A stretch of 64,000 bases of DNA, from NCBI GenBank assembly GCA_029964075.1, contig CM057146.1, forward strand, positions 10,745,501 to 10,809,500. Reading direction: 5' to 3'. The position numbers and the translations under genes were made by a program. The DNA is from Patiria pectinifera (taxonomy: Eukaryota; Echinodermata; Asteroidea; Valvatida; Asterinidae). Below the pieces are notes generated by a model. It saw nothing but the letters and a program-made list of their open reading frames with translations, ran no database searches and had not been told where the DNA came from. Shown one piece after another: positions 1 to 48,394 of the stretch (its first letter is position 1; every line of letters starts with the position of its first letter).

Positions 1-271
1 CAAGATAACATGAAAACAAATTCGAGACTTTCTTAGAGGTCAGGATGTGTACACTTTACAAAAGAGATATCCGAGGAATAGAATTTTGGCCGAGGGACGA
101 GACGAGATACACGAGTTGGACTTGGTGGATGTTCTACATGTAACTTATCAAAGTACGGGATACAGAGGCTGCTTATGCAAACAAACGATCGTCTTCCAAC
201 ATGCATTCCCTAACCCCAAGGATCAGAAGCCAGCAGCATACCGTCAGGCATCCAGACAAGCTGTTATTTAG
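1..271 (+). pseudogene. Integrase N-terminal fragment, unit A
   Basis: Remnant of a retrovirus-like integrase of the kind carried by Polintons/adintoviruses. The peptide FLRGQDVYTL followed by KRYPRNRIL and ELDLVDV matches the conserved stretch before and at the first catalytic Asp of these integrases (typical form FLxxQDTYTLHKPxRRxFPRN...ADLVDM). A 15-bp deletion has removed the HKPAR segment that units C and D keep. After LDLVDV the reading frame runs into about 45 unrelated residues and stops. The rest of the catalytic core is absent, so no active enzyme is possible. Confidence 0.65.
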
Positions 272-745
272 TAAAGGGACAATGCAATGGATTTGTAATG
301 CAATCCTTAAAAATGCAGCTTTGGGTCCATCCCAACCATTCTCCTGTGTTTCTTTATCCCCTTTCATCTAATCAACACTGGTCCCCATTTCCCCCAGCAA
401 TCCCCCTCCCCCACACTCCTTTGTTCCCTAATCCCCTTTCATCCACTGAACACTGGTCCCTCCTCCAACCCTTCCTGATTGCCTGACCCATGCATTTTTT
501 GTTGTCACTGTGTCATTTGCCTCTGAAAAAGTCTTTGCTAAAGACTCTTATATCAGGCCTCTCAATTATTTGATGAAGCCATCAAAGAAGTGGAAGACGC
601 GTGAATTGGGTTAGAATAAAGTTGGCGGGAATTTCAACGAACAAAGACAAGGGAAATGGTTAAAAGGGGAAGGGTTGGCCCTCTCGACCCATCTTGCACT
701 TACACCGCTGAAAGCCATCATCGTCATAATCATCTAGCGTACACC
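272..745 (+). other. C/T-rich spacer and 5' leader of unit A accessory gene
   Basis: This spacer is rich in CCCCTTTCATC and CCCTAATCCCC motifs and recurs in units B, C and D (4490-4960, 8240-8726, 10760-11060). Bases 657-745 form a leader with AAAAGGGGAAGGGTTGGCCCTC that is also seen before the equivalent start codons in B, C and D, so it is probably the promoter/5' UTR. The short open frames inside it are not convincing genes. Confidence 0.5.
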
Positions 746-817
746 ATGTCGCGATATTTTGTCAACGAGAACTTCAATGCCGAGGAGGAGTGGGCGAGAC
801 TGGATGCCCCAGAATGA
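746..817 (+). pseudogene. Truncated first exon of accessory gene, unit A
   Basis: Starts MSRYFVNENFNAEEEWARLD and hits a TGA after 23 codons. The same exon in unit C continues to a GTAAGT donor, giving a three-exon gene. Here, and identically in unit B, the downstream part of the exon is replaced by other sequence, so the break predates the duplication of A and B. Confidence 0.6.
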
Positions 818-890
818 ACAAAGCAAGGAACAATCAATGGTCTAGTTGTTCTACTATCTCTTGCTGCCTCGGGATTGTTTCCGTGTTGTA

Positions 891-1394
891 ACATGTTTGT
901 AACATTCAGGGTTTTTAGGTGTGGAAGGGAGGAGGGCTTGAGAAACACAGGTATGAGACATTTGGGCTCTTTCATAAACCACAACATCGACATGGCAAAT
1001 AATCTACGGCAGTGTTGGATTGAGGAGGTGCGGGCCCACACTCCCGTCCCTGTGCTAGAAGAGCATCACGGCAAGGTGCTTCAACAGCATCACGGCAAGG
1101 TTGCAGTCGGAGGGGAGGACGAGTCACCGTAGCCGCCTCAAGGTCTCCGACGCCATGCAATACGCCCGGGTCTGCCCTCCACGAATGCCGTGGATAACTG
1201 TGCATTGGGCATATGTTATCCACTTTTCGTTCCCACTCGAGAGGCTGGCGGTGGCGGCAGTGCGGGGAGCGGTGATGTCTGCGATGACCTTCAAGGAGGT
1301 CATGGGCTTCCTTTATTGCACGGAGGAGTTACATCCGGCCGTGGCGGCTCTCGAACTACCACGGACACTCAAAGAGAAAATTCAATTTTACTGA
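891..1394 (+). pseudogene. Broken GC-rich ORF, unit A copy
   Basis: Near-identical to the intact 165-codon ORF of unit B at 5109-5606. The frame is broken near 1065-1100, where a short segment (CATCACGGCAAGG) occurs twice in place of the B sequence. The C-terminal half then continues in another frame to the stop at 1392-1394. I recognise no family. Its GC content is far higher than that of the flanks. Confidence 0.55.
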
Positions 1395-1669
1395 ATTGTG
1401 CTCCCACGACCCAACCGGCCCTTTTCAGGGCCACACATGTTCAAAAAAGAAATTGGAATTTATATCTGTCTTGTTTAACCGTCATTTAATTTTGTTTTTT
1501 ATCTCGTTTCCCGTAGCAAAACGTTATAAGCGCGATGTGTAATGCCACAGCGTTGACATGCGATAATAAGCCGCTCAGTCGTAGCATTTTTATATTCACG
1601 TCGTTTCCATTGCGCTAAGGCGTAAAAACACTGTCCCCACAAGTTATATTTTATTTTCCTCCATATTTG

Positions 1670-1677
1670 TATAAATA
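1670..1677 (+). promoter_or_regulatory. TATA box before the CxxC accessory ORF, unit A
   Basis: TATAAATA lies about 100 bp before the ATG-containing ORF at 1775 and is followed by an initiator-like TTCCGTCATT. The same block is conserved in unit B (5882-5889). Assignment is by motif and position only. Confidence 0.5.
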
Positions 1678-1773
1678 TCGGCTTTTGAAAGACCGAGTTC
1701 CGTCATTAACTGTTCCCAGGGTCGTTTACCCTCCAGTTCCCTCGGTCCATTATTCTCTTTTATAAGATTAATT

Positions 1774-2692
1774 AATGCTTCCTATTTATATTGATCGTAG
1801 ATATGAGAGATGTATCATAGATCATTCCTCACAAACAAAACATAGTTGTATAATGGAAACAAGAGAGAACCTTTTAAATCGGTATGTACATGTAGAAGAT
1901 ATGTTAGAGGACCTCTGTGACAACAGACATGAAGAATGCATCGATACATGGTTGTTAGAAGTCGAACACAATGAAGAATTACAGATGTATTATAGACATC
2001 CCGATATGGCCGTCCTCCTGCCTAATGACGACCTCTTCACGGAGGCTACAATTTTACTGTATTTGTTTGTTTCTCAATTTTTAAAATTAATGCTTCCTAT
2101 TTATATTGAACGTAGATGTGAGGGGTGTATTTCACAAACAAAACATAGTTGTATGATGGAAACAAGAGAGAACCTTTTAAATCGGTATGTAGAAGATATG
2201 TTAGAGGACCTCTGTGACAACAGACATGAAGAATGCATCGATACATGGTTGTTAGAAGTCGAACGCAATGAAGAATTACAGATGTATTAAAGACATCCCG
2301 ATATGGCCGTCCTCCTGCCTAATGACAACCTCTTCACGGAGGCTACAATTTTACTGTATATTTTTGTTTCTCAATTTTTAAAATTAATGCTCCCTATTTA
2401 TATTGAACGTAGATGTGAGGGGTGTATTTCACAAACAAAACATAGTTGTATGTCAGAAACAGAAGAAAACCTTTTAAATCGGTATGTAGAAGATATGTTA
2501 GAGGACCTTTGTGACAACAGACATGAAGAATGCATCGATACATGGTTGTTAGAAGTCGAACGCAATGAAGAATTACAGATGTATTATAGACATCCCGATA
2601 TGGCCATTCTGGATTTGTATCATTTCTTGTGTAGCGAATTGCAGCAAGAGGAAACATTAGACATTTTAAAACAGTTCATTTTACATTGTTAG
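1774..2692 (+). repeat. Tandem ~300-bp repeat, three copies
   Basis: Units of about 316, 297 and 305 bp begin with ATGCTTCCTATTTATATTGA or its one-base variant. They are more than 90% alike by eye, so the expansion is recent. Unit B has two copies of the same segment and unit C one. Confidence 0.85.
1775..2692 (+). CDS. Accessory ORF with C-x2-C...H-x-C module, tandemly triplicated
   Basis: Three consecutive copies of a ~300-bp coding segment start at 1774, 2090 and 2387. Each encodes an LPIYI lead, a cysteine/histidine module ([CS]-x2-C ... SQTKHSC), then an acidic helix-like tract (EDMLEDLCDNRHEECIDTWLLEV), a YYRHPD motif and, in the last copy only, the C-terminal LYHFLCSELQQEETLDILKQF ending at TGTTAG. 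Copies 1 and 2 are fused in one frame of 171 codons to a stop at 2290. Copy 3 is open from about 2303 to 2692. Internal copies lack the C-terminal tail, so this is a degraded tandem array rather than a designed repeat protein. The family is unnamed to me. The best-preserved homologue is at 11878-12705. Confidence 0.5.
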
Positions 2693-2885
2693 GATTTTTT
2701 TCTTCAAGGCTGTTTCCACAGAGATCCTTGTTTGGCTTCTAAATTTTTTTAATGTGCTAACCCTTGTTTTGTAGTTTTTCACTGTAGTAATATTTTGATG
2801 AGGGGATCTACTTTTATTTAATTGCGTATTTGTTCCGTTTTTTATAACTGTTTTATAAAAGTTTGATTCCTTTACCCTTGTAACA

Positions 2886-3254
2886 TGATACGGACATAAA
2901 TGTGGACGCAGCAAACCCGGACGCAAAAAAAACAGCTACCCCGTGTAATTTTTTTGCACTGCAGGACTGAATGGTCCATGTCAATATTCAAGGGGAAATC
3001 TGAGGTGGTATGTGATGTAAAAGAACAGTTCATTTTCAACTAAAATCGGTTTTAACAATGTTAATGAACAGGGCACGAAAAGGTTCACCAAGGGGGGAAA
3101 AATGTAAATTTGGAAACAGCCGTCGACTCGCGAGTCGCTACCGATTTAGTAAAAGCCGCCATTTTTTTTCGCACTTTCGTGCGACTGTCATGAGCGAAAG
3201 TTTGCCTCTCAAATTGGACTTTCCAAAAAAAATCCAGGTGAGGATTCAACCTCG
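2886..3254. other. Insert between duplicated 3' ends of unit A
   Basis: The unit's 3' UTR stops at about 2880. A segment absent from the other units follows. It includes a TTGCCTCTCAAATTGGACTTTCC stretch and GGTGAGGATTCAACCTCG just before the join. Then the accessory ORF's C-terminal coding region restarts at 3255. Units B and C carry no such insert. I see no clear terminal repeats. Confidence 0.5.
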
Positions 3255-3436
3255 GTGACAACAGACATGAAGAATGCATCAATACATGGTTGTTAGAAGT
3301 CGAACGCAATGAAGAATTACAGATGTATTATAGACATCCCGATATGGCCATTCTCGATTTGTACCATTTCTTGTGTAGCGAATTGCAGCAAGAGGAAACA
3401 TTAGACATTTTAAAACAGTTCATTTTACATTGTTAG
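3255..3436 (+). pseudogene. Duplicate C-terminal piece of the CxxC accessory ORF
   Basis: The sequence from GTGACAACAGACATGAAGAA to the TTACATTGTTAG stop repeats 2510-2692 with few changes but lacks the cysteine module and a start codon. The following 3' UTR (to about 3620) is also duplicated, and only this second copy continues into the complete unit tail. Confidence 0.7.
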
Positions 3437-4079
3437 GATTTTTTTCTTCAAGGCTGTTTCCACAGAGATCCTTGTTTAAATAGCTTTTTTTTTTTAATGT
3501 GCTAACCCTTGTTTTGTAGTTTTTTACTGTAGTAATATTTTGATGAGGGGATTTACTTTTATTTAATTGCGTATTTGTTCCATTTTTTATAATTGTTTGA
3601 TAAACGTTTGATTCCTTTAAATGTTTGTAACTTTTATTTCTTTTTAACGTTGTGATTTTTAAATCCTTTAAATGTATGTATTTTTTTAATTCAAATAGAA
3701 AAAAACCACTTGTAGAACAATTGTTTAAAAAATCTTGCGTTTGAAATAAAATGGTTGTAAATGTACTTTTTACCCTTCTGCGTTTTTGTTTGTTTGAAAC
3801 TTAAACTAAATAAATAAATAACTAAAATGAAGAAAAGAAAAAAAAAAGAAATAATAAAATAAAGAATAATATTAAGAAAAAGAAGAAGGAAATAAACATT
3901 ATAATAATAATACGAAGAAAATAAACAAATAAATTACAAAGAAAAATATGGAAAGAAAGCATGAAAAATGCTAATAATAAATATGAAAAAAAAATGATAC
4001 TGAGCCTCACCGTTAGTATTAAAGGAATTTAACTCTATCAAACGGACATTTTTAACTTTGGATTCGATAAGACAGGATC
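3437..4079 (+). other. 3' UTR-like and A/G-rich tail of unit A
   Basis: T-rich 3' sequence with AATAAA in TTTGAAATAAAATGG (about 3743-3757), then about 200 bp of A/G-rich low complexity with AAGAAGAAGGAAATAAACATTATAATAATAA, then the leader CTATCAAACGGACATTTTTAACTTTGG that precedes each integrase start. It is repeated in units B and C. Confidence 0.6.
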
Positions 4080-4478
4080 ATGGATGATTATGGACGGGTG
4101 GATTAATTAAAGACTTTATATTATGACATAGATCGTGAAAGCGGCTTGGGTAATATTGACAAGTTGTGTCGAGCGGCTAAGCAAAAGGGGAAATACAAGA
4201 TAACGCTAAAACAAATTTGAGACTTTCTTAGGGGTCAGGATACATATACTTCACATAAGCCCGCTAGAAAGAGATATCCGAGGAATAGAATTTTGGCCGA
4301 GGGACGAGACGAGATACACGAGTTGGACTTGGTGGATGTTCTACATGTAACTTATCAAAGTACGGGATACAGAGGTTGCTTATGCAAACAAACGATTGTC
4401 TTCCAACATGCATTCCCTATCCCCAAGGATCAGAAGCCAGCAGCATACCGTCAGGCATCCAGACTAGCTGTTATTTAG
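4080..4478 (+). pseudogene. Integrase N-terminal pseudogene, unit B
   Basis: Starts ATGGATGAT; the frame reads on into TLYYDIDRES, KGKYKIT, GQDTYTSHKPARKRYP and ELDLVDV, the N-terminal half of a Polinton-type integrase up to the first catalytic Asp region. Two in-frame stops are present (after GRVD, and before DFLRG). After LDLVDV the frame continues for about 45 codons of non-integrase sequence to TAG at 4476-4478, exactly as in unit A. The catalytic core beyond that point is missing. Confidence 0.7.
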
Positions 4479-4961
4479 TAAAGGGACAATGCAATGGATT
4501 TGTAATGCAATCCTTAAAAATGCAGCTTTGGGTCCATCCCAACCATTCTCCTGTGTTTCTTAATCCCCTTTCATCTAATCAACACTGGTCCCCATTCCCC
4601 CAGCAATCCCCCTTAATCCCCCTCCCCCACACTCCTTTGTTCCCTAATCCCCTTCCATCCACTGAACACTGGTCCCTCCTCCAACCCTTCCTGATTGCCT
4701 GACCCATGCATTTTTTGTTGTCACTGTGTCGTTTGCCTCTGAAAAAGTCTTTGCTAAAGACTCTTATATCAGGCCTCTCAATTATTTGATGAAGCCATCA
4801 AAGAAGTGGAAGACGCGTGAATTGGGTTAGAATAAAGTTGGCGGGAATTTCAACGAACAAAGACAAGGGAAATGGTTAAAAGGGGAAGGGTTGGCCCTCT
4901 CGACCCATCTTGCACTTACACCGCTGAAAGCCATCATCGTCATAATCATCTAGCGTACACC

Positions 4962-5033
4962 ATGTCGCGATATTTTTTCAATGAGAACTTCAATGCCGAG
5001 GAGGAGTGGGCGAGACTGGATGCCCCAGAATGA
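4962..5033 (+). pseudogene. Truncated first exon of accessory gene, unit B
   Basis: Same 23-codon MSRYF-type exon remnant as at 746-817, with one substitution (FF in place of FV) and the same TGA. It sits about 75 bp before the GC-rich ORF. Confidence 0.6.
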
Positions 5034-5108
5034 ACAAAGCAAGGAACAATCAATGGTCTAGTTGTTCTACTATCTCTTGCTGCCTCGGGATTGTTTCTGT
5101 GACGTAAC

Positions 5109-5606
5109 ATGTTTGTAACATTCAGGGATTTTAGATGTGGAAGGGAGGAGGGCTTGAGAAACACAGGTATGAGACATTTGGGCTCTTTCATAAACCCCAA
5201 CATCGACATGGCAAATAATCTACGGCAGTGTTGGATTGAGGAGGTGCGGGCCCACACTCCCGTCCCTGTGCTAGAAGAGCACAGGGACCGCTTCAACAGC
5301 ATCACGGCAAGGTTGCAGTCGGAGGGGAGGACGGGTCACCGTAGCCGCCTCAAGGTCTCCGACGCCATGCAATACACCCGGGTCTGCCCTCCACGAATGC
5401 CGTGGATAACTGTGCATTGGGCATATGTTATCCACTTTTCGTTCCCACTCGAGAGGCTGGCGGTGGCGGCAGTGCGGGGAGCGGTGATGTCTGCGATGAC
5501 CTTCAAGGAGGTCATGGGCTTCCTTCATTGCACGGAGGAGTTACATCCGGCCGTGGAGGCTCTCGAGCTACCACGGACACTCAAAGAGAAAATTCAGTTT
5601 TACTGA
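5109..5606 (+). CDS. Unrecognised 165-residue GC-rich ORF embedded in unit B
   Basis: Open from ATG 5109 to TGA 5604-5606. The product has a basic N-terminal segment, an acidic middle (QCWIEEVRAHTPVPVLEEH), a Cys-Pro-Pro turn (RVCPPRMPW), a hydrophobic stretch (ITVHWAYVIHFSF) and two helix-like segments, ERLAVAAVRGAVMSAMTF and EALELPRTLKEKIQF. No signal peptide or catalytic motif is evident, and I do not recognise the family. GC content is well above that of the AT-rich unit around it, which suggests foreign origin or different constraint. The first ~15 codons may be intronic, because an acceptor-like TTCAG lies at about 5122-5126. Unit A has a frameshifted copy. It could be an accessory gene of the parent element or a captured host gene. 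Confidence 0.45.
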   Translation: MFVTFRDFRCGREEGLRNTGMRHLGSFINPNIDMANNLRQCWIEEVRAHTPVPVLEEHRDRFNSITARLQSEGRTGHRSRLKVSDAMQYTRVCPPRMPWITVHWAYVIHFSFPLERLAVAAVRGAVMSAMTFKEVMGFLHCTEELHPAVEALELPRTLKEKIQFY

Positions 5607-5986
5607 ATTGTGCTCCCACCGACCCAACCGGCCCTTTTCAGGGCCACACATGTTCAAAAAAGAGATTTGAATTTATATCTGTCTTGTTTAACCGTCATTT
5701 AATTTTGTTTTTATCTCGTTTCCCGTAGCAAAACGTTATAAGCGCGATGTGTAATGCCACAGCGTTGACATGCGATAATATGCCGCTCAGTCGTAGCATT
5801 TTTATATTCACGTCGTTTCCATTGCGCTAAGGCGTAAAAACACTGTCCCCACTAGTTATATTTTATTTTCCTCCATATTTGTATAAATATCGGCTTTTGA
5901 AAGACCGAGTTCCAGCATTAACTGTTCCCATGGTCGTTTACCCTCCAGTTCCCTCGGTCCATTATTCTCTTTTATAAGATTAATTA
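5607..5986 (+). promoter_or_regulatory. Promoter block before CxxC ORF, unit B
   Basis: Contains TATAAATA at 5882-5889 with a downstream TTCCAGCATTAACTG, and a conserved upstream block AAAACGTTATAAGCGCGATGTG. It is shared almost base for base with unit A (1395-1774). Units C and D lack it; there the same domain is reached by splicing from an upstream exon. Confidence 0.45.
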
Positions 5987-6609
5987 ATGCTTCCTATTTA
6001 TATTGATCGTAGATATGAGGGATGTATCATAGATCACCCCTCACAAACAAAACATAGTTGTATAATGGAAACAAGAGAGAACCTTTTAAATCGGTATGTA
6101 GAAGATATGTTAGAGGACCTCTGTGACAACGGACATGCAGAATGCATCGATACATGGTTGTTAGAAGTCAAACGCAATGAAGAATTACAGATGTATTATA
6201 GACATCCCGATATGGTCGTCCTCCTGCCTAATGACGACCTCTTCATGGAGGCTACAATTTTACTGTATATTTTTGTTTCTCAATTTTTTAAATTAATGCT
6301 TCCTATTTATATTGATCGTAGATGAGAAGGGTGTGCCATAGATCACCCCTCACAAACAAAACATAGTTGTATGTCAGAAACAGAAGAAAACCTTTTAAAT
6401 CGGTATGTAGAAGTGTGTTAGAGGACCTCTGTGACAACAGACATGAAGAATGCATCGATACATTGTTGTTAGAAGTCGAACACAATGAAGAATTACAGAT
6501 GTATTATAGACATCCCGATATGGCCATTCTCGATTTGTACCATTTCTTGTGTAGCGAATTGCAGCAAGAGGAAAAATTAGACATTTTAAAACACTTCATT
6601 TTACATTAA
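5987..6609 (+). pseudogene. CxxC...HPSQ...HxC accessory ORF, unit B, two copies, frame-broken
   Basis: Copy 1 (5987-6296) encodes YEGCIIDHPSQTKHSCIM and the acidic helix and YYRHPD segments. It then runs into copy 2, which stops at the TGA in CGTAGATGA (about 6322-6325), before its cysteine module. An open frame restarts at 6367 and reaches the C-terminal LYHFLCSELQQEEKLDILKHF, stop 6607-6609. The first Cys of the C-x2-C pair is Tyr here, so metal binding by this copy is doubtful. A 3' UTR-like T-rich tail with AATAAA (about 6942) follows. Confidence 0.55.
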
Positions 6610-7246
6610 TAGGATTTTTTTCTTCAAGGCCGTTTCCACAGAGATCCTTTTTTTGCTTTTTTTGTGTGTGAATGTGCTACATGTAACCCTCGTTTTGTAG
6701 TTTTTCACAGTAATAATATTTTGATGAGGGGATTACTTTTATCAAATTGCGTATTTGTTCTGTTTTTTATAACTGTTTTATAAAAGTTTGATTCCTTTAA
6801 ATGTTTGTAATTTTTATTCCTTTTTAATGTGTGATTTTTTATTCCTAAATATATTCCTAAATATATGTATTTTTTTAAATTCAAATAGATTAAAAAACAC
6901 TTGTAGAACAATTGTTTAAAAAATCTTGCGTTTGAAATAAAATGGTTGTGAATGTACTTTTTGCCCTGAACTGCGTTGTTTTTTGTTTGAAACTTAAACT
7001 AAATAAATAAATAAATAAAATTAAGGAAAGAAAAAAGAAATATTAAGAAAAAGAAGAAGGAAATAAACATTATAATAATAATATGAAGAAAATAAACAAA
7101 TAAATTAAAAAGAAAAATATAGAAAGAAAGCATAAAAAATAATAATAAATATGAAAAAAAGATGATACTGAACCTCACCGTTAGTATTAAAATGAATTAA
7201 ACTATCAAACGGACATTTTTAACTTTGGCTTCGATAAGACAGGATC

Positions 7247-7516
7247 ATGGATGATAAAGGACGGGTGGATTACTTAAGGACTTTATATTATGACATAGAT
7301 CGTGAAAGCCACTTGGGTAGTATTGACAAGTTGTATCGCGCGGCTAAGCAAAAGGGGAAATACAAGATAACGCGAAAACAAATTTGAGACTTTCTTAGGG
7401 GTCAGGATGTGTATACTTTACATAAGCCCGCTAGAAAGAGATATCCGAGGAATAGAATTTTGGCCGTGGGACGAGACAAAATACACGAGTTGGACTTGGT
7501 GGATGTTTCTAACTGA
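7247..7516 (+). pseudogene. Integrase N-terminal pseudogene, unit C
   Basis: Begins MDDKGRVDYLRTLYYDIDRE and keeps the QDVYTLHKPARKRYP and ELDLVDV motifs of the Polinton-type integrase N-terminal region. One in-frame TGA lies just before DFLRG (about 7385). It ends LVDVSN with TGA at 7514-7516, immediately after the region of the first catalytic Asp. The same end point is seen in unit D. Confidence 0.75.
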
Positions 7517-8140
7517 GGTGCAATGCATTTGGTAATTAACCCCCAAAGAGCCCTTAGGGGGTTAGGGTTAATCCTAATTAACCCCTCTTTCCCTCATTCA
7601 GGCTAATACCCCATTCATCATCACTTTTCCTTTGTTCCTCCTGCTTCATTCAGTTCCCCATCCCTACCACACTCCATTGTTCCCTAATCCCCTTTTAATG
7701 ATGTTCCCCCTTCAATGGCTTCAAAAAGCATGTACACAGTCTTTACCCCAGCTAGTTTCAGCACTTAATTACATCGCTAGCGCTCCTCTTTTGCGGACAT
7801 AAATGTGCCCCCTCGAACATAAGTGTGCCCCTCGCGATGAAAACAAAACTGGCCCTTAAAGAGTTCTGACATGAATGATGAATATGAAAGTCAAGCCCAA
7901 AATCCTTACAATGCAACCTGAAAATAGGCACATAATGCAAAGTTTGCATAATGGCCAGTTAAGAAGAGCACCCCCTAATTTGGAAGATGGTACCATGGGA
8001 GGAAAGATCCATGTATGATGAAAACCAGTAAACATTCATCATGAGATTTCAACTGTGTCACCTTATTGTCGTTTAATTTTAGTTGACAAGTGAGCTGCCA
8101 TCTGAATAAAAAAACAACTTTTTTTAACCTCTCCAATTAC
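7517..8140. other. Insert in unit C with TTAGGG-rich start
   Basis: Begins after the integrase stop with AATTAACCCCC..CCCTTAGGGGGTTAGGGTTAATCC, a dyad also found after the integrase fragment in unit D (10650-10710). The rest has no convincing coding frame. Its right end rejoins the A/B sequence at AGAGGCTACAAAAGCAAACAAACG. Confidence 0.4.
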
Positions 8141-8726
8141 AGAGGCTACAAAAGCAAACAAACGATTGTCATCCAACATGCATTCCCTAGCCCCAAGGAT
8201 CAGAAGCCAGCAGCATACCGTCAGGCATCCAGACTAGCTGTTACTTAGTAAAGGGACAATGCAATGGATTTTTAATGCAATCCTTAAAAATGCAGCTTTG
8301 GGTCCATCCAACCATTCTCCTGTGTTTCCTAATCCCCTTTCATCTAATCAACACTGGTCCCCATTCCCCCAGCAATCCCCCTTAATCCCCCTCCCCCACA
8401 CTCCTTTGTTCCCTAATCCCCTTCCATCCACTGAACACTGGTCCCTCCTCCAACCCTTCCTGATTGCCTGACCCATGCATTTTTTGTCAGTGTCATTTGC
8501 CTCTGAAGAAGTCTTTGCTAAAGACATCTTATATCAGGCCTCTCAATTATTTGATGAAGCCATCAAAGAAGTGGAAGACGCGTGAATTGGGTTAGAATAA
8601 AGTTGGCGGGAATTTCAACTAACAAAGACAAGGGAAATGGTTAAAAGGGGAAGGGTTGGCCCTCTCGACCCATCTTGCACTTACACCGCTGAAAGCCATC
8701 ATCGTCATAATCATCTAGCGTACACC

Positions 8727-9453
8727 ATGTCGCGATATTTTGTCAACGAGAACTTCAATGCCGAGGAGGAGTGGGTGAGACTGCATGCCCTTGTGAGGAA
8801 CGACCCGATGTGGGGACAAGCCGTCCCGCACGCCCCTCTTGCAGCACCTCCGCTTCATCCGAGTTGGGAAATGGGTAAGTAACATTATTTTGAGTCTGAT
8901 ATCTATACCACACTCTCGTGCGTCTGTCACAAAGCTCCCTTAAAGTTATCCGTTTCCTATTTTTCCGTATTTTTATGGCTCTATTTTAATTTTTGTAACA
9001 CGCAGATCCTGGCCAAGATGCTCAACATCGAGAGGCTGAAATCATTGTCCTCACCTTGTCCGATGACGGTAAGTTTCTTTTACATATTTAACTGTGTTCA
9101 TATTTGTCTGTGTAACGCGAACGATGTTGTCGGAAAAAAAGTAAAGTAAAGCAGATTTGTATTATTTCACTTTATACGCAGATGACGAAGAGGGGTTTAC
9201 ACCATTGGGCCTATCACTGCCCAGCCCGGCTCTCGCTCTGCCTCAGACTCCACAGCTCAGCCCAGTTCCCGCTCAAGTTGCCCCGGCGCAAAATCCACCC
9301 TTCCTACCACCCAATGACGACCTCTTCACGGAGGCTACAATTGTACTGTATATTTTTGTTTCTCAATTTTTAAAATTAATGCTCCCTATTTATATTGAAC
9401 GTAGATGTGATGGGTGTATTAATTATAGATCATCCCTTACAAACAAAACATAG
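8727..9453 (+). CDS. Three-exon accessory gene, unit C (exons 8727-8874, 9006-9068, 9182-9453)
   Basis: Exon 1 starts MSRYFVNENFNAEEEWVRLH and ends at a GTAAGT donor (8875). Exon 2 (9006-9068) lies between CGCAG and GTAAGT. Exon 3 starts after ATACGCAG. All phases agree (1,1). The predicted product of about 160 residues has an acidic N-terminus, a Pro-rich linker (LPSPALALPQTPQLSPVPAQ), then the LFTEATIVLYIF and LMLPIYIERRCDGC segment of the CxxC domain. A small frameshift after CDGC removes the HSC half of the module and ends the frame at 9453. Out-of-frame remnants of the rest of the domain continue to about 9750. The parent protein is therefore: acidic N-terminus, proline linker, hydrophobic segment, Cys/His module, acidic helices. 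Confidence 0.55.
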
Positions 9454-9752
9454 TTGTATAATGGAAACAAGAGAGAAACTTTTAAATCGGTATGTAGAAG
9501 ATATGTTAGAGGACCTCAAGAATGCATCGATACATGGTTGTTAGAAGTCGAACGCAATGAAGAATTACAGATGTATTATAGACATCCCGATATGGCCATT
9601 CTCCTGTGACGACACATGAATGAATGCATCATCGACATGGTGTTTAGAAGTCAAACGCAATGAAGACATTCTCGATTTGTACCATTTCTTGTGTAGCGAA
9701 TTGCAGCATTAGGAAACATTAGACATTTTAAAACAGTTCATTTTACATTGTT
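9454..9752 (+). pseudogene. Out-of-frame C-terminal part of the CxxC accessory gene, unit C
   Basis: Carries the ETRE..LLNRYVEDMLEDL, WLLEVERNEELQMYYRHPD and FLCSELQ segments in changing frames, with internal deletions (about 9515) and a short partial duplication (about 9600-9665). It ends at TTACATTGTTAG. It is not translatable as one frame. Confidence 0.6.
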
Positions 9753-10367
9753 AGGATTTTTTTCTTCAAGGCTGTTTCCACAGAGATCCTTGTTTTGCTT
9801 TTTTTTTTTTTTGAATGTGCTAACCCTTGTTTTGTAGTTTTTCACTGTAGTAATATTTTGATGAGGGGATTTACTTTTATTTAATCGCGTATTTGTTCTG
9901 TTTTTATAACCGTTTTTTAAAAGTTTGATTCCTTTAAATGTTTGTTATTTTTATTCCTTTTTTAATGTATGTGATTTTTTATTCCTTTAAATATATATTT
10001 TTTTAATTCAAATAAAAAACAACTTGTAGAACAATTGTTTAACAAATCTTGCATTTGAAATAAAATGGTTGTGAATGTACTTTTTGCCCTTCTGCGTTGT
10101 TTTTTGTTTGAAACTTAAACCAAATAAATAAATAACTAAAATTAAGGAAAGAAAAAAGAAATATTAAGAAAAAGAAGAAGGAAATAAACATTATAATAAT
10201 AATACGAAGAAAATAAACTAAATTAAAAAGAAAAATATAGAAAGAAAGCATGAAAAATAATAATAATTATGAAAAAAAATTGATACTGAGCCTCACCGTT
10301 AGTATTAAAACGAATTAAACTATCAAACGGACATTTTTAACTTTCGCTTCGATAAGACAGGATCATT

Positions 10368-10640
10368 GATGATAAAGGACGGGTGGAATACTTAAAGACT
10401 TTATATTATGACATAGATTGTGAAAGCGGCTTGGGTACTGGTAGTATTGACAAGTTGTATCGCACGGCTAAGCAGGTGGGGAAATACAAGATAACGCGAC
10501 AACAAATTCGAGACTTTCTTAGGGGTCAGGATGTGTATACTTTACATAAGCCCGCTAGAAAGAGATATCCGAGGAATAGAATTTTGGCCGTGGGACGAGA
10601 CGAGATACACGAGTTGGACTTGGTGGATGTTTCTAACTGA
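10368..10640 (+). pseudogene. Integrase N-terminal fragment, unit D (frame open, start lost)
   Basis: The only copy without internal stops. It reads EYLKTLYYDIDCE, then RQQIRDFLRGQDVYTLHKP and ELDLVDVSN with a stop at 10638-10640. A GATCATTGATGAT change displaces the ATG found in unit C. The product would be about 88 residues: the N-terminal domain of a Polinton-type integrase ending at the first Asp region, so catalytically dead. The shared end point in C and D argues for an internally deleted, non-autonomous parent that was amplified. Confidence 0.75.
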
Positions 10641-11059
10641 GGTGCAATGTATTTGGTAATTAACCCCCAAAGAGCCCTTAGGGGGTTAGGGTTAATCCTA
10701 ATTAACCCCTCTTTCCCTCATTCAAGCTAATACCACATTCATCATCATGCAATGAATTTGTAATGCAATCCTTAAAAAAATGCAGCTTTTGGTCCATCCC
10801 AACCATTCTCCTGTGTTTCCTAATCCCCTTTATCTACCTAACACTGGTCCCCATTCCCCCAATCCCCTTTTGTTCCCAATCCCCCTCCCCCACACTCCTT
10901 TGTTCCCTAATCCCCTTTCATCCACTGAACATCAGTCCTCTTCCAACCCTTTCTGATTGCCTGTCCCATGCATGTTTTTTTTTTGTCACTGTGTCATTTG
11001 CCTCTGAAGAAGTCTTTGCTAAAGACATGTATCTTATATCAGGCCTCTCAAATATACTT

Positions 11060-11424
11060 TTTTAACAAAACACTTTCTGGCCAAGGAAGAGTGGTCGAGA
11101 CTGAACGCCGACCCAATGTGTCGTGCCATGCTTACTGATAGTTTATTGACCACATGGGGCCTGAATACGGTAAGTTATTTTATCAGTTACTCAACAAGCA
11201 CTATTTGGTATAAGTAGCAAGTAGTACCCCTGTAAGTATTTAGTAGGAAGGCCATTATTTCTCACACATTTGTGAAATTGTAGAGGATCTCCTCCGTAAA
11301 GATAGAGATGTTTTGATGTTGCACTGGTTGGAGACAGTTCAGTCCAGTGGATTTGTAGGGAAATATTTTGAATTTGAAGAGGCAGCAGTGTCTGCCTTTG
11401 TGGAATTTTTATTTCACGGTTAAA
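11060..11424 (+). pseudogene. Decayed two-exon accessory-gene copy
   Basis: An exon-like segment encodes AKEEWSRLNADPMC (compare AEEEWVRLHA and AEEEWRRLDA) and ends at a GTAAGTT donor near 11170. The 3' piece at 11282-11424 encodes MLHWLETVQSSGFVGKYF and EEAAVSAFVEFLFHG with a TAA stop, homologous to the C-terminus at 12550-12705. The cysteine module has been deleted between them. Confidence 0.55.
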
Positions 11425-11494
11425 TGACAGTACAACTCTACTAGAACTAAAACACTATGTCGTGTAAAAGTTAAAAGGGACAACAACAACAAAA

Positions 11495-11580
11495 AGCCCA
11501 TGAAGTCTCAGAATTTCGAAAAGAACCAGACAAGGTTGATAGGTTTAATCTCATGGCTCAAGTACCTATGGATATGAAAA
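11495..11580 (+). pseudogene. Fragment resembling the ORF at 14038
   Basis: Encodes VSEFRKEPDKVDRFNLMAQV, which aligns with VSEFRKEMEETDRRNLLSQV of the 14038 ORF. About 25 codons are recognisable with no start. It shows that this ORF belonged to the same element family. Confidence 0.55.
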
Positions 11581-11781
11581 ATTTAGGGAGGTACCTTACG
11601 TAAAGGTTAGGATTATACACAAGAAAGGGATTTCCATTAGTTCCTGGGCGAGTAATTAACCTTACCGTATCGGACTAATCCAAATTGAAGGCACTTATAC
11701 CGGCTCGTAGAAGCTGATCCATGTATGCATTGGTTAAAAAAGGACAATGAGTCTAAGAAAAAGCAGTGACTTAAGTTTCAG

Positions 11782-11790
11782 ATAAAAAGG
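11782..11790 (+). promoter_or_regulatory. TATA-like GATAAAAAGG upstream of accessory gene
   Basis: GATAAAAAGGGCAGGGTTGG lies about 95 bp before the ATG at 11878. It aligns with TTAAAAGGGGAAGGGTTGG in the same position in units A-C, so this block is the conserved core promoter of the gene. Confidence 0.4.
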
Positions 11791-11877
11791 GCAGGGTTGG
11801 TCTTCAAGATTGGTATTGCTTAAGCTTTTCAACCATCGTTATCATTGTCAGCAGCATCATCTTCACTACAGATTATT

Positions 11878-12705
11878 ATGGCCAGGCAACTCTTTTTGGG
11901 GGAGAGCTTTGACGCCGAGGAAGAGTGGCGTCGTTTGGATGCTTCGGTGAATGGCGACCCTATGCAGGGGCAAGGGCCCCCAGAACCACACCAGAGTTGG
12001 GAAATCGGTAAGTTATCAGGGTTTTTTTTTCGAGTCTGTTATCTAACGTACAGTCCAAAACTCATGTCTGTCTGTACAAAGTGCATATAAAGTGATCAAA
12101 ACTCCTCTATGTACCTTGTTTATGCGAGCGTTCGTTTTGTCAGTATTTTTATGTTTTTTCTTATTATTTTCTTTAAAAATGCACAGATGACAACCAAGAA
12201 GACCAACAAGTCTTGGAAGACGACTTCATTGATCTCACGGGGCCAGAGGCTCCGGAAGCAGCAACGGCGGCAGATGAAGACCTTGTACCGAGACCGTACT
12301 CCCCTCGCCCCAATGTAGATGTTACATCCGAAGATCCAAATATGGAAGTAAGGGGACATTTATTGTGCGTCGTAGGCTTATACATAAGAACTGTCTTATT
12401 CCAATATGTACAAAAAAACTGCTATGGTTGCTGCGTCGATCATCCATCGCAAAGACAACACAGTTGTCTGATGGATGACGCAGAAGACCATTACTACTCC
12501 CACATCCATGAAATCATTGAGGATCATTTCTCCGAAATGACAGGGAAGTTCTAATGTTCCACTGGTTGGAAAAAGTACGAACCAGTGGATTTTTAAGGGC
12601 ACATTATGTATTTGAAGAGGCAACAATGTCTGCCCTTGTCGAATATTTATATAGCAAGTTGTACGAAAACACAACTCTGCTAGAATTAAAACATGATGTC
12701 GTGTA
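11878..12705 (+). CDS. Best-preserved CxxC/HPSQ accessory gene (exons 11878-12007 and 12187-12554, plus frameshifted 3' part)
   Basis: Exon 1 begins MARQLFLGESFDAEEEWRRL and ends at GTAAGT (12008). Exon 2 follows TGCACAG, with agreeing phase. Exon 2 encodes an acidic linker (EDDFIDLTGPEAPEAATAAD), a YSPRPN segment, a hydrophobic strand (GLYIRTVLFQYV) and the complete Cys/His module CYGCCVDHPSQRQHSCLM, followed by an acidic helix (IIEDHFSEM). The frame stops at 12552-12554. Shifting by one base continues with HWLEKVRTSGFL, YVFEEATMSALVEYLY and LLELKHDVV to TAG 12703-12705, matching the C-terminus of the other copies, so one frameshift separates a full-length gene of roughly 215 residues. The module (C-x2-C, then HPSQ, then H-x-C) looks like a small zinc-binding fold, but that is inference. 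I do not know a named family. Confidence 0.6.
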
Positions 12706-13110
12706 GCCAAAAAACACCCCCAAAAAACACACAGAACCCCCCCCAAATAAAAACCAGATAGTTAACTTTTTTACACTTTTAATTTCGTTTTTTAATTGTT
12801 TAATTAACTATCATAAAGTTGTGAGTGTGTGAAGCTTTCATCTGTAACAAAACCAAATAGTTTAAATTTGATTTCTGAATGTAATTGTATGAAAAATACT
12901 TTGTTGAAAAAAAGGGGGGGGGAAATATAAAAAAATGCTTAGAAAAAAAATGGCAAAAAAAAAAAAAAAAGAATTTGAAAAAAAACAACAGCTTTGTATT
13001 TCTAAAAAAAAAAGAGAAAAAATTTAAATAGTTTTATTCAATAAATTAAAAAAAAGTGGCATGTATTTTATTCTTGCGCGTTTGGTTTGAAAATAAAATG
13101 AAAAAAAGAA
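12706..13110. other. Homopolymer-rich tail of unit D
   Basis: Runs of A, C and T with no coding frame. TTTGAAAATAAAATG at about 13087 corresponds to the polyadenylation-signal block of units A-C. Confidence 0.5.
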
Positions 13111-13237
13111 AATATTAGTTTGTGTGTGATGAATGCCTCGTAATGATAGCATAAACTAGGGGTGATAACGGGGTTAGGTTCATAGTTCGTTTGTGATTGA
13201 ACGAGTTAACATCATTGGGGATAGCAAAGCAAAGCAC

Positions 13238-13275
13238 GGGTGGATTACTTAAAAATGTTATATTACAATATAAGG
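13238..13275 (+). pseudogene. Fifth integrase start (stub)
   Basis: ACGGGTGGATTACTTAAAAATG followed by TTATATTACAATATA matches the first ~36 bases after the ATG of units B-D and then diverges. It marks the start of a fifth unit truncated almost at once. Confidence 0.55.
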
Positions 13276-13950
13276 TTAGGGCTCCGCATCGTGTCAAAAA
13301 GAAGGAAATGTCATCAGCAGTTCCAGCAGATACAAGGTGCCAGCTCTTAAAGGAGAATCCCTCCTCCAGTACCTGATCACACAGCTCAACCATCAATCCA
13401 ATCATAACCCATCGAAGAGCCAACCAAGGCGAACCAGGATGAAGTCCACTGCTTGAAGTACTGAAGAAACCTAATGCCCATTTTTGAGGGTGATGGCTTC
13501 CAATAATTAGGAATTGCGCCAACCAAGACATGTGAAGTCTTCGTAAAGACGTAGGCAGCAATGACTGATTGGCTCTTCCAAAGCCAGATTCCAGTTACAA
13601 TGCCACTGGCTAGGAGACGCCGAACTGTGAGAGGGATCGATAGCGGAGGGGGCAGCACAAGCATGAAAAGACCTTTTCAAATCTCAAGATCCAACATCTT
13701 CTCAACTTCAGTGTATTGCTCAAATTGAAAATGAAAGGAAGATGGTTGAGGAAGGGGGGTGGACCGTAAAACAAATGTGGACCCACTTTTCGAAGACAAC
13801 GATTCACTTTAAGATTCCGCTATAACCCAAGACTGGTCGTCGATCAGGACCACACCACCAGTCCGCCCCACACAATTTTCAAACATTCAACTTTAGGCTC
13901 AATGATTCTATTTTTAACCTCACAAGATTTCACAAGATTGCGCAATACCT
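13276..13950. other. Unassigned segment before the 14038 ORF
   Basis: Minus-strand open frames of 60-150 codons overlap here (one reads SKTSHVLVGAIPNYW... with frequent Trp and Ser). None has a motif I recognise and they overlap in conflicting frames. It may be another dead transposon. Confidence 0.25.
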
Positions 13951-13963
13951 TCTCCTAAAAAGG

Positions 13964-13970
13964 TATAAAA
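13964..13970 (+). promoter_or_regulatory. TATA box for ORF 14038
   Basis: AGGTATAAAAGCGCG is a strong TATA match 74 bp before the ATG at 14038, with a transcription-start-like CAGTTTCAACATTTTGTCG about 30 bp downstream. Confidence 0.6.
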
Positions 13971-14037
13971 GCGCGTGTAACGGAGACAGTTTCAACATTT
14001 TGTCGACGAATAATCACACACAAAAATAAAATTTAAA

Positions 14038-14460
14038 ATGGATGATAGTCTTAGTAAAACACGGGCAGTTTGGACTCCAAAAAGTTGTGCATTGCCGTCA
14101 AATAGACCGGGCTATAGTTGGAATTCAACAGGCGGTCTGGACGAAGTCTCTGAATTTCGTAAAGAAATGGAAGAGACCGATAGGCGTAATCTCTTGAGTC
14201 AAGTACCTTTGAAAAAACCTGACTTGATGAAAACCAACGAGGAATCTAGAAAGAGAGCATTGTTGAAACAAAGAATGACAACGCCATCAAAGTCAAAACT
14301 ATTAAAACCCATCATGGAGGATGACACGTCCATCATTAGATTAAAATTGATAATGCCCCCCCCTCCCCCCCGCATACGGCTGGAATTACCAAGGAATTCT
14401 TGGCCGATCCAATGCCCGAGTTTGTCTGAGAAATGGGGGGCAGTTGGCAGTTTGAGGTGA
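14038..14460 (+). CDS. Polinton-associated ORF, 3' end fused into a Tc1 fragment
   Basis: Starts MDDSLSKTRAVWTPKSCALP. The N-terminal ~115 residues are polar and Lys/Glu-rich (EEDTD-type helices, KKPDLMKTNEESRKRALLKQRM) with a polyproline PPPPPRIRLELP. The original frame then meets a Tc1/mariner transposase segment near 14425 and reads out of frame to a stop at 14458-14460. A good TATA box and a related fragment at 11495 indicate it was a structural or accessory gene of the same mobile-element family. Basic, proline-containing small proteins occur among Polinton minor structural proteins, but I cannot assign it to one. Confidence 0.45.
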   Translation: MDDSLSKTRAVWTPKSCALPSNRPGYSWNSTGGLDEVSEFRKEMEETDRRNLLSQVPLKKPDLMKTNEESRKRALLKQRMTTPSKSKLLKPIMEDDTSIIRLKLIMPPPPPRIRLELPRNSWPIQCPSLSEKWGAVGSLR

Positions 14461-14690
14461 TGACTTGGCCGGCCCAGAGTCCCGACCTGAATCCGATTGA
14501 AAATCTGTGGAATGAGATCGATCGTTGTCTTCAGCTGGAAAATCGGCCGGCGAATAAAGACGAGCTCTTTCAGACTATCAATCGGATTTGGGAGGGAATG
14601 GACCGACAAGTCATCACTAATCTCCTGGAGTCGATGCCAAGGCGATGCCAGGCTGTTATCGACGCCGGCGGGGCTTTTACCCGCTACTAA
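14433..14690 (+). pseudogene. Tc1/mariner transposase C-terminal fragment
   Basis: Encodes WPAQSPDLNPIENLWNEID, the hallmark of the third catalytic region of Tc1/mariner transposases, followed by the usual C-terminal helices (ELFQTINRIWEGMDRQVITNL, then SMPRRCQAVIDAGG) and a stop at 14688-14690. The helix-turn-helix and first two catalytic Asp regions are missing, and I see no terminal inverted repeats at its edges. It is a fragment inserted into, or recombined with, the Polinton remains. Confidence 0.85.
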
Positions 14691-14901
14691 AGTCCTACCT
14701 CCATGATCCATTTCCTGCCCGATTTTGCGGACACTGGGCGCCACCATCTTTAATCATATGTTAATGAGAACGCTGGCCATTGACTTTGTGCACGCGCACA
14801 GACAGACGTTAATCACAGTATGTACCCGACAGTTGTTTTCGGGTTTTCGGTGAAGCAGTGAGCGATGCCAGAAGGGCTGGGGATAGGATCCTTCAAATTT
14901 G

Positions 14902-16078
14902 ATTACTGCCGACACAATGAAGTTACTTGGCAATTCAGCGTACGGAAAAACAGCAACGAATCAGTTCAAACGCATGAACATGAAAATATGCGACGACACC
15001 AACGCTCTGCGCTATGTCAATGACAAACACTTCTGAGCCCTTCATCAGATTGGGGATGGTGTTTATGAGATTGACATGGCAAAGAAATAGACTTATTAAA
15101 CTACACCCATCCAAATCGGTTTCTTCGTCTATCAGTACAACAAGCTGTGGATGCAGGAGTTCCACTACGATTTCCTTACAAAGTTAATTCACACATCTCA
15201 GATGTGTGAAATGGACACAGATTCTGCATATTTAAGCCACAATTTAGAATCAGTCATCAGACCTGGAAAGAGCACTGAATGTCTTGTGTTGACACCCAAG
15301 AACAATGTGACTATGACAAGTTAACTTCGGGGCTCTTTGAAATTAAATGGGAGGGTGATGGGATTGTCACACTCTGTAGCAAGACATGTATCTGTTTTGG
15401 TGCATCAAATAAAATTAGTTTCAACGAGAAAAACAACTCTTCCAAAGCTGCAGATGCAGGAGTTCCACTATGATTTCCTTACTAAGTTAATTCCCACATC
15501 TAACTTTCAGATGTGTGAAATGGACACCGATTCCGCATATCTAGCTCTGTCTGTTCCAAATTTGGAATCAGTCATTAGACCTGAAAAGAGCAAGGAACGT
15601 CTTGTGTTGACACCCAAGAACTTGAGACTATGACAAGCGAACTTCGGGGCTCTTCAAAATTGAATGGGAGGGTGATGGGATTATCACACTCTGTAGCAAG
15701 ACATATTTCTGTTTTGGTGCAACAAATAAAATTAGTTGCAACGAGAACAACTCTCCAAAGCTGCAGATGCAGGAGTTCCACTATGATTCCCTTACTAAGT
15801 TAATTCCCACATCTAACTTTCAGATGTGTGAAATGGACACCGATTCCGCATATCTAGCTCTGTCTGTTCCAAATTTGGAATCAGTCATTAGACCTGAAAA
15901 GAGCAAGGAACGTCTTGTGTTGACACCCAAGAACTTGAGACTATGACAAGCGAACTTCGGGGCTCTTCAAAATTGAATGGGAGGGTGATGGGATTGTCGG
16001 GCGCTGCAGCAAAACTTATTTCTGTTTAGGTGCATCAAATAAACTTAGTTGCAAGGGGTTAAACAAAACTGCTTTCCA
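14902..16078 (+). pseudogene. Protein-primed family B DNA polymerase (Polinton/adintovirus type), broken and tandemly repeated
   Basis: At 14920-14952 the peptide KLLGNSAYGKT carries the Kx3NSxYG palm motif of family B polymerases. Three tandem segments (15145-15447, 15448-15760, 15761-16078) each carry QEFHYDFLTKLI, then CEMDTDSAYL, with the DTDS motif C that holds the catalytic aspartates, and downstream the LFEIKWEGDG and CSKTCICFG type block. Stops and frameshifts separate these blocks in every copy. Copies 2 and 3 are almost identical, so the last duplication is recent. N-terminal exonuclease and terminal-protein regions are absent. The gene is dead, but it identifies the neighbourhood as Polinton/adintovirus-derived. 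Confidence 0.8.
15145..16078 (+). repeat. Three tandem ~310-bp copies of the polymerase motif-C segment
   Basis: Units of 303, 313 and 318 bp each start at CTG.(A/G)GATGCAGGAGTTCCACTA. Copy 1 has lost about 8 bp around motif C relative to copies 2 and 3. Confidence 0.85.
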
Positions 16079-16139
16079 AAGGGGCCCTCATACTAAATTT
16101 CCTTGAAAATAAAACTAAACAAAAATTTACATCAGTAGA

Positions 16140-16355
16140 GACGACATTGGAGAACACATGAATCTATACACAGAAAAGACGGGAATGTTGATATCTTCAC
16201 AAAGAAGCCTGATAGGAAGCATGTTTGGGTCGACGATTCTTCTAGCCACACCTCTGCTACAGAGGTACTTGTCTCACAGACTCGTAGTCGAACACATGTA
16301 TGAAGTAATTCAATACCAGAAAAAAATAATTGTCTTCATGATTTTGATCAGCTAA
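16140..16355 (+). pseudogene. Polymerase fragment from upstream of the palm, out of order
   Basis: The open segment SQRSLIGSMFGSTILLATPLLQRYLSHRLVVEHMYEVIQYQ, shown here only as short blocks (IGSMFG, LLATPLLQRYL, YEVIQYQ), resembles the stretch that lies before Kx3NSxYG in Polinton/adintovirus polymerases. Here it lies 1.2 kb downstream of that motif, so the gene has been rearranged. Attribution rests on pattern memory and is moderate. Confidence 0.45.
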
Positions 16356-17005: not shown

Positions 17006-17212
17006 CCATAACTGATTCGTTTTTATCAGCTTTTACATTTTTTTAAGCTTTGATACATCTTTCATTTTGCATTTTAATGATTGTTTTGATATCCTGTTTC
17101 ATCATGGCAATGTCCTTGGAAAAGAGACATATACCAGTAACAGGTTCAACGGTCACCTCGGCACGTTCTTAAGTGTATGTCATAATTATGGTCTCATCTG
17201 CTTTTCACATAG

Positions 17213-17533
17213 AAACTACAAAGGCGTCAATCAAGCCTCCGGTCAAATAATTTACTGGAGGCTGAAAAAAAGGAAGCGGAAGAGGTGATGGCGATGCCAT
17301 ACATGTCATCAGAGGAAAGCATGTCTGAGGAGGAGCAGCCTGCAGACAACAGAAGAAAAGTGCGACGGCTGCGGAAACTGCCATGGGAGCGGTCTCGTCT
17401 TACTTCACTTAAATACAAGCTAGACACGCATTTTGCAAAGACCTCTCCCGTGTTGGTCAGTGAAATACTCTTTAAGATGCTCGTCAGAGTCATTTTGTCA
17501 GCAGGCTTTAAACTTATGGTTTACCATAACTGA
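17213..17533 (+). CDS. Repeated exon, copy 1 (SSEESMSEEE / RRLRKLPWER protein)
   Basis: A CATAG acceptor at 17208-17212 opens a frame through PYMSSEESMSEEEQPADNRR, then a basic KVRRLRKLPWERSRLTSLKY and LDTHFAKTSP. The YMSSEES acidic block followed by a basic PW-R block and LDxxF is a combination I have seen in uncharacterised transposon-associated proteins of marine invertebrates, but I cannot name a family. A GTCAGT donor-like site follows LV (about 17457). The frame otherwise runs on to 17533. Confidence 0.4.
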   Translation, partial: KLQRRQSSLRSNNLLEAEKKEAEEVMAMPYMSSEESMSEEEQPADNRRKVRRLRKLPWERSRLTSLKYKLDTHFAKTSPVLVSEILFKMLVRVILSAGFKLMVYHN

Positions 17534-17740
17534 TTCGTTTTTATCAGCTTTTACATTTTTTTTAAGCTATAATTTTGTCTATACATCTGTCATCTTGCAT
17601 TTTAATTATTGTTCTGATATCCTGTTTCATCATGGCAATGTCCTTGGAAAAGAGACATATACCAGTAACAGGTTCAACTGTCACCTCGGCACGTTCTTAA
17701 GTGTATGTCATAATTATGGTCTCTTCTGCTTTTCTCATAG

Positions 17741-18094: not shown

Positions 18095-18269
18095 GCTATG
18101 ATTTTGTCTATACGTCTTTCATCTTGCATTTTAATTATTGTTCTGATATCCTGTTTCATCATGGCAATGTCCATGGAAAAGAGACATATACCAGTAACAG
18201 GTTCAACTATCACCTCGGCACGTTCTTCAGGGTATGTCATAATTATGGTCTCTTCTGCTGTTCACATAG

Positions 18270-47928: not shown

Positions 47929-47965
47929 TAGTTAAGCCACTGGTAACAAACATCGTTATGTTTAA

Positions 47966-48390: not shown

Positions 48391-48394
48391 TTAA

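Follow-up and report, generated by a model that had tools for sequence, protein, structure and literature searches.

Probable local tandem duplication of a Polinton segment on contig C18 of the sea star Patiria pectinifera

Tandem repeats derived from transposons, together with satellite-like segmental duplications, are a general kind of genomic structure. Polintons or Mavericks (polintoviruses, adintoviruses) are giant self-synthesizing DNA transposons. For vertebrate Mavericks, one study gives (AGT)2//(ACT)2 ends and 6-bp target site duplications (PMC8097293), and Polinton replication relies on a protein-primed PolB (PMC6431247). A literature search found no report on tandem arrays made from a slice of a Polinton. 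Here, we analyzed a stretch of 64,000 nucleotides from Patiria pectinifera (CM057146.1, C18:10,745,501–10,809,500, hereafter the window) within a searched genome of 613.5 Mb on 1020 contigs, for which all genome-wide match counts are lower bounds. The window contains the right-hand part of a head-to-tail array, including four of its six integrase pieces wholly or in part; the array units carry an accessory gene (ACC) and the N-terminal piece of a Polinton-type integrase. In our view, this array quite likely arose when part of a dead Polinton fragment devoid of element ends underwent local tandem segmental duplication and recombined unequally; it resembles a genomic fossil more than a novel type of mobile element.

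Self-comparison of the window bore out the head-to-tail repeats over 1–11 kb. Positions 1–2314 match 4196–6531 with 95.0% identity over 2349 columns, and 6525–7623 match 9667–10,747 with 91.7% identity over 1110 columns. The original prediction had let the array run from 1 to 16,355; the clean repeats extend to about 11,055, but the remainder (11.1–16.4 kb) consists of diverged or different material, in which we found a third version of the accessory gene, pieces resembling Tc1 and PolB, and a weak relic of an integrase. On the other side, the array begins about 14 kb outside the window, with its left edge near C18:10,731,470, and no array match was found in the 11 kb to the left of this edge (10 kb of locus L033 and the first 968 bases of locus L009). 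The array thereby spans about 25 kb with six integrase-bearing units, the unit length being 3.1–4.2 kb and the copies numbering about six or seven at this one locus. The integrase pieces are positioned on C18 at 10738100 (INT1), 10741324 (INT2), 10745451 (INT3, given as the first matched base in one frame), 10749583 (INT4), 10752750 (INT5) and 10755868 (INT6), of which INT3 to INT6 belong to units A to D of the window; a relic holding the integrase start alone lies further left in the array (L009, about 1952–2023). The predicted recurrence of a unit order was also found again, with the accessory gene, an AT/poly(A)-rich block and the integrase N-terminus following one another. One unit comprises ACC, an AT-rich spacer and the 5′ third of the integrase, in normal Polinton gene order. 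If the assembler had duplicated one or two units, the copies would be near-identical; the integrase regions of the units share 87–97% identity (2.6–13% difference) and the units have private inserts, stops and repeat numbers, which makes an assembly artefact extremely unlikely.

The proposed Polinton or adintovirus origin of the integrase piece was upheld by several comparisons. When the 88-residue piece was searched against 5.8 billion proteins, six proteins were found among 26 candidates, and four of them are close (68–77% identity): two full-length integrases (352 and 356 residues) with rve and a chromodomain, and two shorter ones with rve. The array itself contains only the N-terminal part, the rve and Chromo domains being carried by the relatives P0001 and P0002. 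In tblastn, pieces C and D share 69–78% identity with the four closest database integrases, and pieces A and B 47–61% in alignments that take in a degraded extension. Compared with the integrase protein of X11, a full-length Polinton of the same genome, the pieces ending at VSN (INT1, INT2, C and D) show 87–92% identity, and INT3, A and B show 62–77%. A Pfam scan of the N-terminal piece gave no match at the cut-off, and none of the phage records had the piece. In viral contigs (IMG/VR), no relative was found of the integrase piece, the PolB-like piece, the accessory piece or the alignments A2 and A3. The ratio of nonsynonymous to synonymous substitution rates (dN/dS) is 1.20 (0.49–3.78) for the integrase N-terminus of five array copies, INT3 being omitted, and 1.07 in another run; for seven integrase copies on contig C7 it is 0.18. 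Judged by this ratio, the array integrase copies evolve without visible constraint.

It had been claimed that the integrase is cut right after the LDLVDV motif in every copy, so that a single non-autonomous deletion derivative would have been amplified. Two types of integrase end were observed instead. INT1, INT2, C and D stop three residues after LDLVDV at an insert, but A (2–235) and B (4107–4442) continue through roughly 30–45 degraded codons, with the alignment reaching residue 119 of P0001. Across the array, the last integrase residue falls between about 87 and 130 of about 355. For the 32-residue extension of unit B in fixed register, 0 of 5000 shuffles reached the score with each of the four references, and for that of unit A the numbers were 0, 0, 2 and 2 of 5000; the first 20 residues of the extension are weaker, with 18–33 of 5000 shuffles reaching the score. 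Past the LDLVDV point, the DNA of A and B remains collinear with the Polinton X13 on C7 over about 34 bases, and the similarity is weak thereafter.

Full-length Polintons in the genome indicate what intact element ends look like, and two of them were traced out to their termini. X11 (C7:11529761–11545081, about 15.3 kb) has inverted repeats with 97.5% identity over 407 aligned positions, and X13 (C7:7071607–7086191, about 14.6 kb) has inverted repeats with 94.2% identity over 450 aligned positions. Both start with AGTAGTG and show 6-bp duplications by eye (ATCACT for X11 and TATGTT for X13), the far end of X13 being one base off a perfect repeat. These ends and duplications agree with the vertebrate Maverick report (PMC8097293). 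Among the ten open frames of X11 that were scanned, one contains an rve integrase and two contain DNA_pol_B_2 pieces; the A32-like ATPase and double-jelly-roll (DJR) matches were below the cut-offs. In addition, C4:7129918–7135295 is a true internal-deletion Polinton derivative of 5.4 kb, with both terminal inverted repeats (TIRs), a GGGGTT duplication (by eye) and a short piece of the integrase (residues 82–112). As a separate observation, contig C7 (44.85 Mb, 7.3% of the genome) holds 24 of the 44 integrase loci that are at least 38% identical, among 115 of 1132 candidates scored and counted with rows within 10 kb merged and the array taken once. A second integrase class, 30–34% identical, has 16 of its 49 loci on C7 among the same 115 of 1132 candidates. 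This chromosome could be rich in transposons, or it could be sex-linked.

The same kinds of ends were sought in 89 kb of C18, i.e., the window plus 25 kb upstream. TIR probes from X11 and X13 found no ends (best match 16 bp, E 0.030), and neither did probes from C4, X14 and an element nested in X12, for which no match was better than E 0.32. Out of ten X11 gene pieces searched over the 89 kb, the integrase start alone matched; the other nine, which include the PolB pieces and the pieces with weak DJR-like and A32-like matches (capsid, ATPase), gave nothing at E 0.01. X11, X13 and C4 each have a 6-bp target duplication, but the array has no located ends at which one could be placed. The lack of ends in these searches counts against both an amplified deletion derivative and a concatemer.

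The accessory gene provided a second line of comparison. Its C-terminal domain, which contains a Cys/His motif and is repeated in frame, gave 29 genome matches (query window 2303–2689, all 31 candidates scored), 20 on C18 and 9 elsewhere. On C18, 18 rows have 68–100% identity and two have 35–36%, and the nine elsewhere all have 33–41%. Each of the nine homologues outside the array has an integrase downstream on its own strand, at a distance of 0.46–1.07 kb, which indicates that accessory gene, spacer and integrase form the normal Polinton order, and this neighborhood in full-length Polintons further supports the origin of the integrase piece. In X12 (C7:9.455 Mb), for example, a small gene (G14014), ACC exon 1, the ACC C-terminus and the integrase follow each other. 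Most of the other integrase loci in the set described above (115 of 1132 candidates scored) had no accessory match.

These data bear on the explanation that tandem amplification acted on a non-autonomous Polinton with an internal deletion, through concatemer replication or repeated insertion next to itself. It would account for the presence in every unit of the integrase 5′ piece without the remainder, and C4 demonstrates that the genome does contain such a derivative. However, no TIR was found in or around the array with the five probes, the integrase has two different end points among the units, and each unit is a slice that keeps the usual gene order of Polintons. The C4 derivative looks different, with both TIRs and a 6-bp target duplication. 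A mobile derivative should also be dispersed, but array-type ACC was found on C18 only (all 31 candidates scored), as was the insert after VSN over its length (40 of 752 candidates scored). As regards concatemers, protein-primed PolB replication (PMC6431247) seems to offer no obvious way to a head-to-tail concatemer without ends. We consider amplification of a deletion derivative, by either route, very unlikely and already largely ruled out.

The relationships among the units point to recombination, the other of the two origins that had been suggested for the array. For the integrase start plus about 45 bases of upstream sequence, the separation of U1, U2, B, C and D from X11–X14 has a support of 100/99, so five of the six integrase pieces are, by their sequence, of common ancestry. 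The integrase start of U3 (INT3) groups with the C7 elements, but from the window start on, the same unit is 95.0% identical to unit B over 2349 columns. It also has an X12-like accessory piece, with 88.9% DNA identity in an alignment of 1222 columns in which ACC and the integrase start are included. The INT3 unit is best explained as a mosaic that would have resulted if the array had exchanged sequence with another Polinton piece, and such mosaic unit types support recombination.

Based on these comparisons, the array may have been built as follows. A Polinton of the X11–X14 kind, or a close relative, would have left a fragment on C18. A segment starting upstream of ACC and taking in ACC itself, the AT-rich spacer and the 5′ third of the integrase gene would then have been duplicated head to tail, and repeated unequal exchange and gene conversion could have led to the six integrase-bearing units over about 25 kb. 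Afterwards, the units would have taken up insertions (the C-type insert with its dispersed repeat, and ORF5103) and decayed. The integrase ends presumably differ between units because later events, i.e., the insert and small indels, struck the same stretch. We infer this order of events, and likewise unequal crossing-over, not replication slippage, as the builder of the array. Two other local tandem arrays occur outside the unit within the same 19 kb, one of 313 bp × 2.9 (15,142–16,054) and one of about 528 bp × 3 (17.0–18.5 kb), and the region seems to duplicate locally whatever sequence is present.

Several observations weigh against local duplication within a dead fragment. The ACC of the array is only 33–41% identical to that of any full Polinton, compared with 87–92% identity to X11 for four integrase N-terminal pieces. 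The immediate parent was thus not found, which requires us to assume a parent lineage that was recombinant or has been lost. None of the C7 pieces compared matched the spacer upstream of ACC, so the left end of the duplicated segment could not be located in a parent. Because U3, one of the six integrase pieces, does not group with the rest of the array, the array is not purely of single origin. Finally, the negative result on element ends holds for the families represented by the five TIR probes.

A different explanation is that the array was kept by selection, with in-frame expansion of ACC into multi-domain frames that serve the host or once served the element. For 13 copies of the ACC domain, dN/dS is 0.48 (codon bootstrap 0.27–0.88); this set comprises 16 array copies (matches shorter than 56 residues omitted) minus two broken and one distant, and all 16 give 0.51. 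Moreover, four ACC domains extend in frame over about 410 codons at C18:10736221–10737450 (L009 5721–6950), free of frameshifts and interrupted by two stops that occupy the same site, and the three repeats of unit A (1790–2689) have one stop. In contrast, the subsets are not clear, with 0.63 (0.30–1.59) for the last-repeat copies and 0.51 (0.25–1.13) for the internal repeats. The difference from the integrase N-terminus is marginal (bootstrap 0.047), and the sign of constraint is weak because copy pairs share history. Exon 1 occurs at six array places; it is full at two (window 8727–8876 and C18:10739711–10739860), both of which are broken downstream, and truncated at four, where it ends after 21 residues before ORF5103. 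The constraint could also date back to the active element. We consider retention by selection very unlikely, and likewise the related idea that a virus-like fragment acted as a nursery for a new multi-domain gene. In this view, the Cys/His domain of the accessory regulator would have been amplified in frame (up to four domains, about 410 codons) within an array whose integrase piece is free to decay, and selection would keep the repeated domains, e.g., for a role in the host or against the element. Should the weak sign of ACC constraint hold up, the locus would represent a viral regulator growing by domain repetition. Protein searches found no homologues of the accessory domain, no Pfam match of the accessory pieces reached the cut-off, and the structure prediction of the domain has low confidence (predicted local distance difference test score, pLDDT, of 53). 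The acidic accessory exon contains a stretch (IIDLT) that may be SUMO-interaction-like.

The features of the array and its right flank are collected in Table 1. The C-type insert, over its length, has five copies among the best 40 of 752 candidates, all on C18 (one split into two rows, one short). Its inner part (271–481; window 7785–7995, about 210 bp) is a dispersed repeat matching at least 35 places on other contigs or chromosomes. For ORF5103, no Pfam match reached the cut-off.

Table 1. Positions of array features and related pieces in the window (TRF, Tandem Repeats Finder).
Feature	Position	Strand	Basis
Integrase N-terminal piece, unit A (INT3), cut by window start; one stop, 4-residue gap vs references	2..235	+	tblastn to P0001 residues 38-119, E 5e-17, 50% identity
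Accessory exon 1, truncated after ~21 residues, unit A (C18:10746246-10746308)	743..805	+	frame
ORF5103 copy inserted in accessory exon 1, unit A, two frames	893..1391	+	tblastn of ORF5103
Three in-frame accessory C-terminal domain copies, 297-bp tandem, one stop	1790..2689	+	TRF 1829-2605, period 297, 2.6 copies; frame
Additional partial accessory C-terminal domain, unit A	3248..3433	+	self-comparison, tblastn
AT-rich, A/G-rich spacer upstream of integrase, unit B	3800..4010	+	sequence; TRF rows 3808-3934
Integrase N-terminal piece, unit B (INT4), two stops; degraded run past LDLVDV to reference residue 119	4083..4442	+	tblastn, shuffle test, DNA alignment
Accessory exon 1, truncated, unit B	4962..5024	+	frame
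ORF5103, 165-aa open frame inserted in accessory exon 1, unit B	5109..5603	+	open frame; tblastn
Two accessory C-terminal domain copies, unit B, second crossing frames	6002..6606	+	tblastn, frame
Integrase N-terminal piece, unit C (INT5), one internal stop, ends ...LDLVDVSN	7250..7513	+	frame, tblastn
C-type insert after VSN, unit C	7515..8137	+	genome search, alignment
Accessory exon 1, full (50 codons), unit C, then GT...AG-type intron	8727..8876	+	frame; splice signals by eye
Accessory C-terminal domain, unit C, frameshifted, with stops	9394..9751	+	tblastn
Integrase N-terminal piece, unit D (INT6), open frame, ends ...LDLVDVSN	10368..10637	+	frame, protein search, tblastn
Shortened C-type insert, unit D (C18:10756139-10756247)	10641..10747	+	self-comparison, genome search
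Diverged third accessory version (exon 1 and C-terminal part), outside clean array	11878..12551	+	frame; tblastn of C-terminal part matches array and L012/L013 copies
Weak relic of integrase start	13237..13272	+	12 residues, 67% identity, lowest E 0.21

Other sequences of the region were recorded as well. The PolB-like piece at 14,887–16,103, outside the repeat array, has its own 313-bp tandem array (2.9 copies) across an MDTDS motif. It has weak support (Pfam E 0.035, below the cut-off; PHROG E 0.006 on one piece; sequence motifs), differs from the PolB of X11, and gave nothing meaningful in a PDB search; the assignment is tentative. A Tc1/mariner-like transposase remnant lies at 14,433–14,687 (Pfam DDE_3, E 4.4e-7). 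Further on, three units of about 528 bp lie in tandem within 17,006–19,188, together with additional 88–89-bp repeats; they carry an acidic open frame (MSSEESMSEEEQ...), the first copy of which had no Pfam match. The segments 37,904–38,245 (DUF1647, E 4.1e-7) and 39,355–39,918 (no Pfam match) are likely host gene exons, and 26,724–27,246 and 47,962–48,395 form an inverted repeat pair with 95–98% identity about 21 kb apart.

The palindrome TACATGTA occurs at 14 sites in the window (including 135, 1887, 4342 and 6678), compared with 1.7 expected from base composition. It is also the most over-represented palindromic 8-mer in about 115 kb outside the array, with 50 both-strand counts vs 4.3 expected. 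At five array places, corresponding to three ancestral events, the copy without the palindrome differs by 6 bp, from TA to TACATGTA. A Tc1-type transposon with CA..TG ends is expected to leave just such a 6-bp footprint when it is excised, and footprints of this type could explain the excess. No report of TACATGTA as a transposon footprint was found in a literature search.

In comparison with Polintons or Mavericks, the array has a related integrase N-terminus and, as in nine other integrase loci of this genome, ACC directly upstream; it differs in the partial integrase, in having no TIR detected with the five probes, and in the absence of PolB, ATPase and capsid genes of the X11 lineage. The internally deleted Polinton on C4 is likewise a short element with an integrase piece, but it possesses both TIRs and the 6-bp duplication, whereas no TIR was found at the array. 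Remnants of a giant self-synthesizing DNA transposon can, as this locus suggests, be amplified locally into an array that lacks ends; an array of this kind should be read neither as a novel non-autonomous Polinton nor as a sign of replication through concatemers. With transposon-derived tandem repeats and satellite-like segmental duplications, the array shares the head-to-tail arrangement, the mosaic exchange and the presence of further local tandem arrays, although its unit is long, its copies few and its location a single locus. Combined, the full elements bearing TIRs and target duplications, the true deletion derivative on C4 and the tandem slice on C18 provide a yardstick within one genome.

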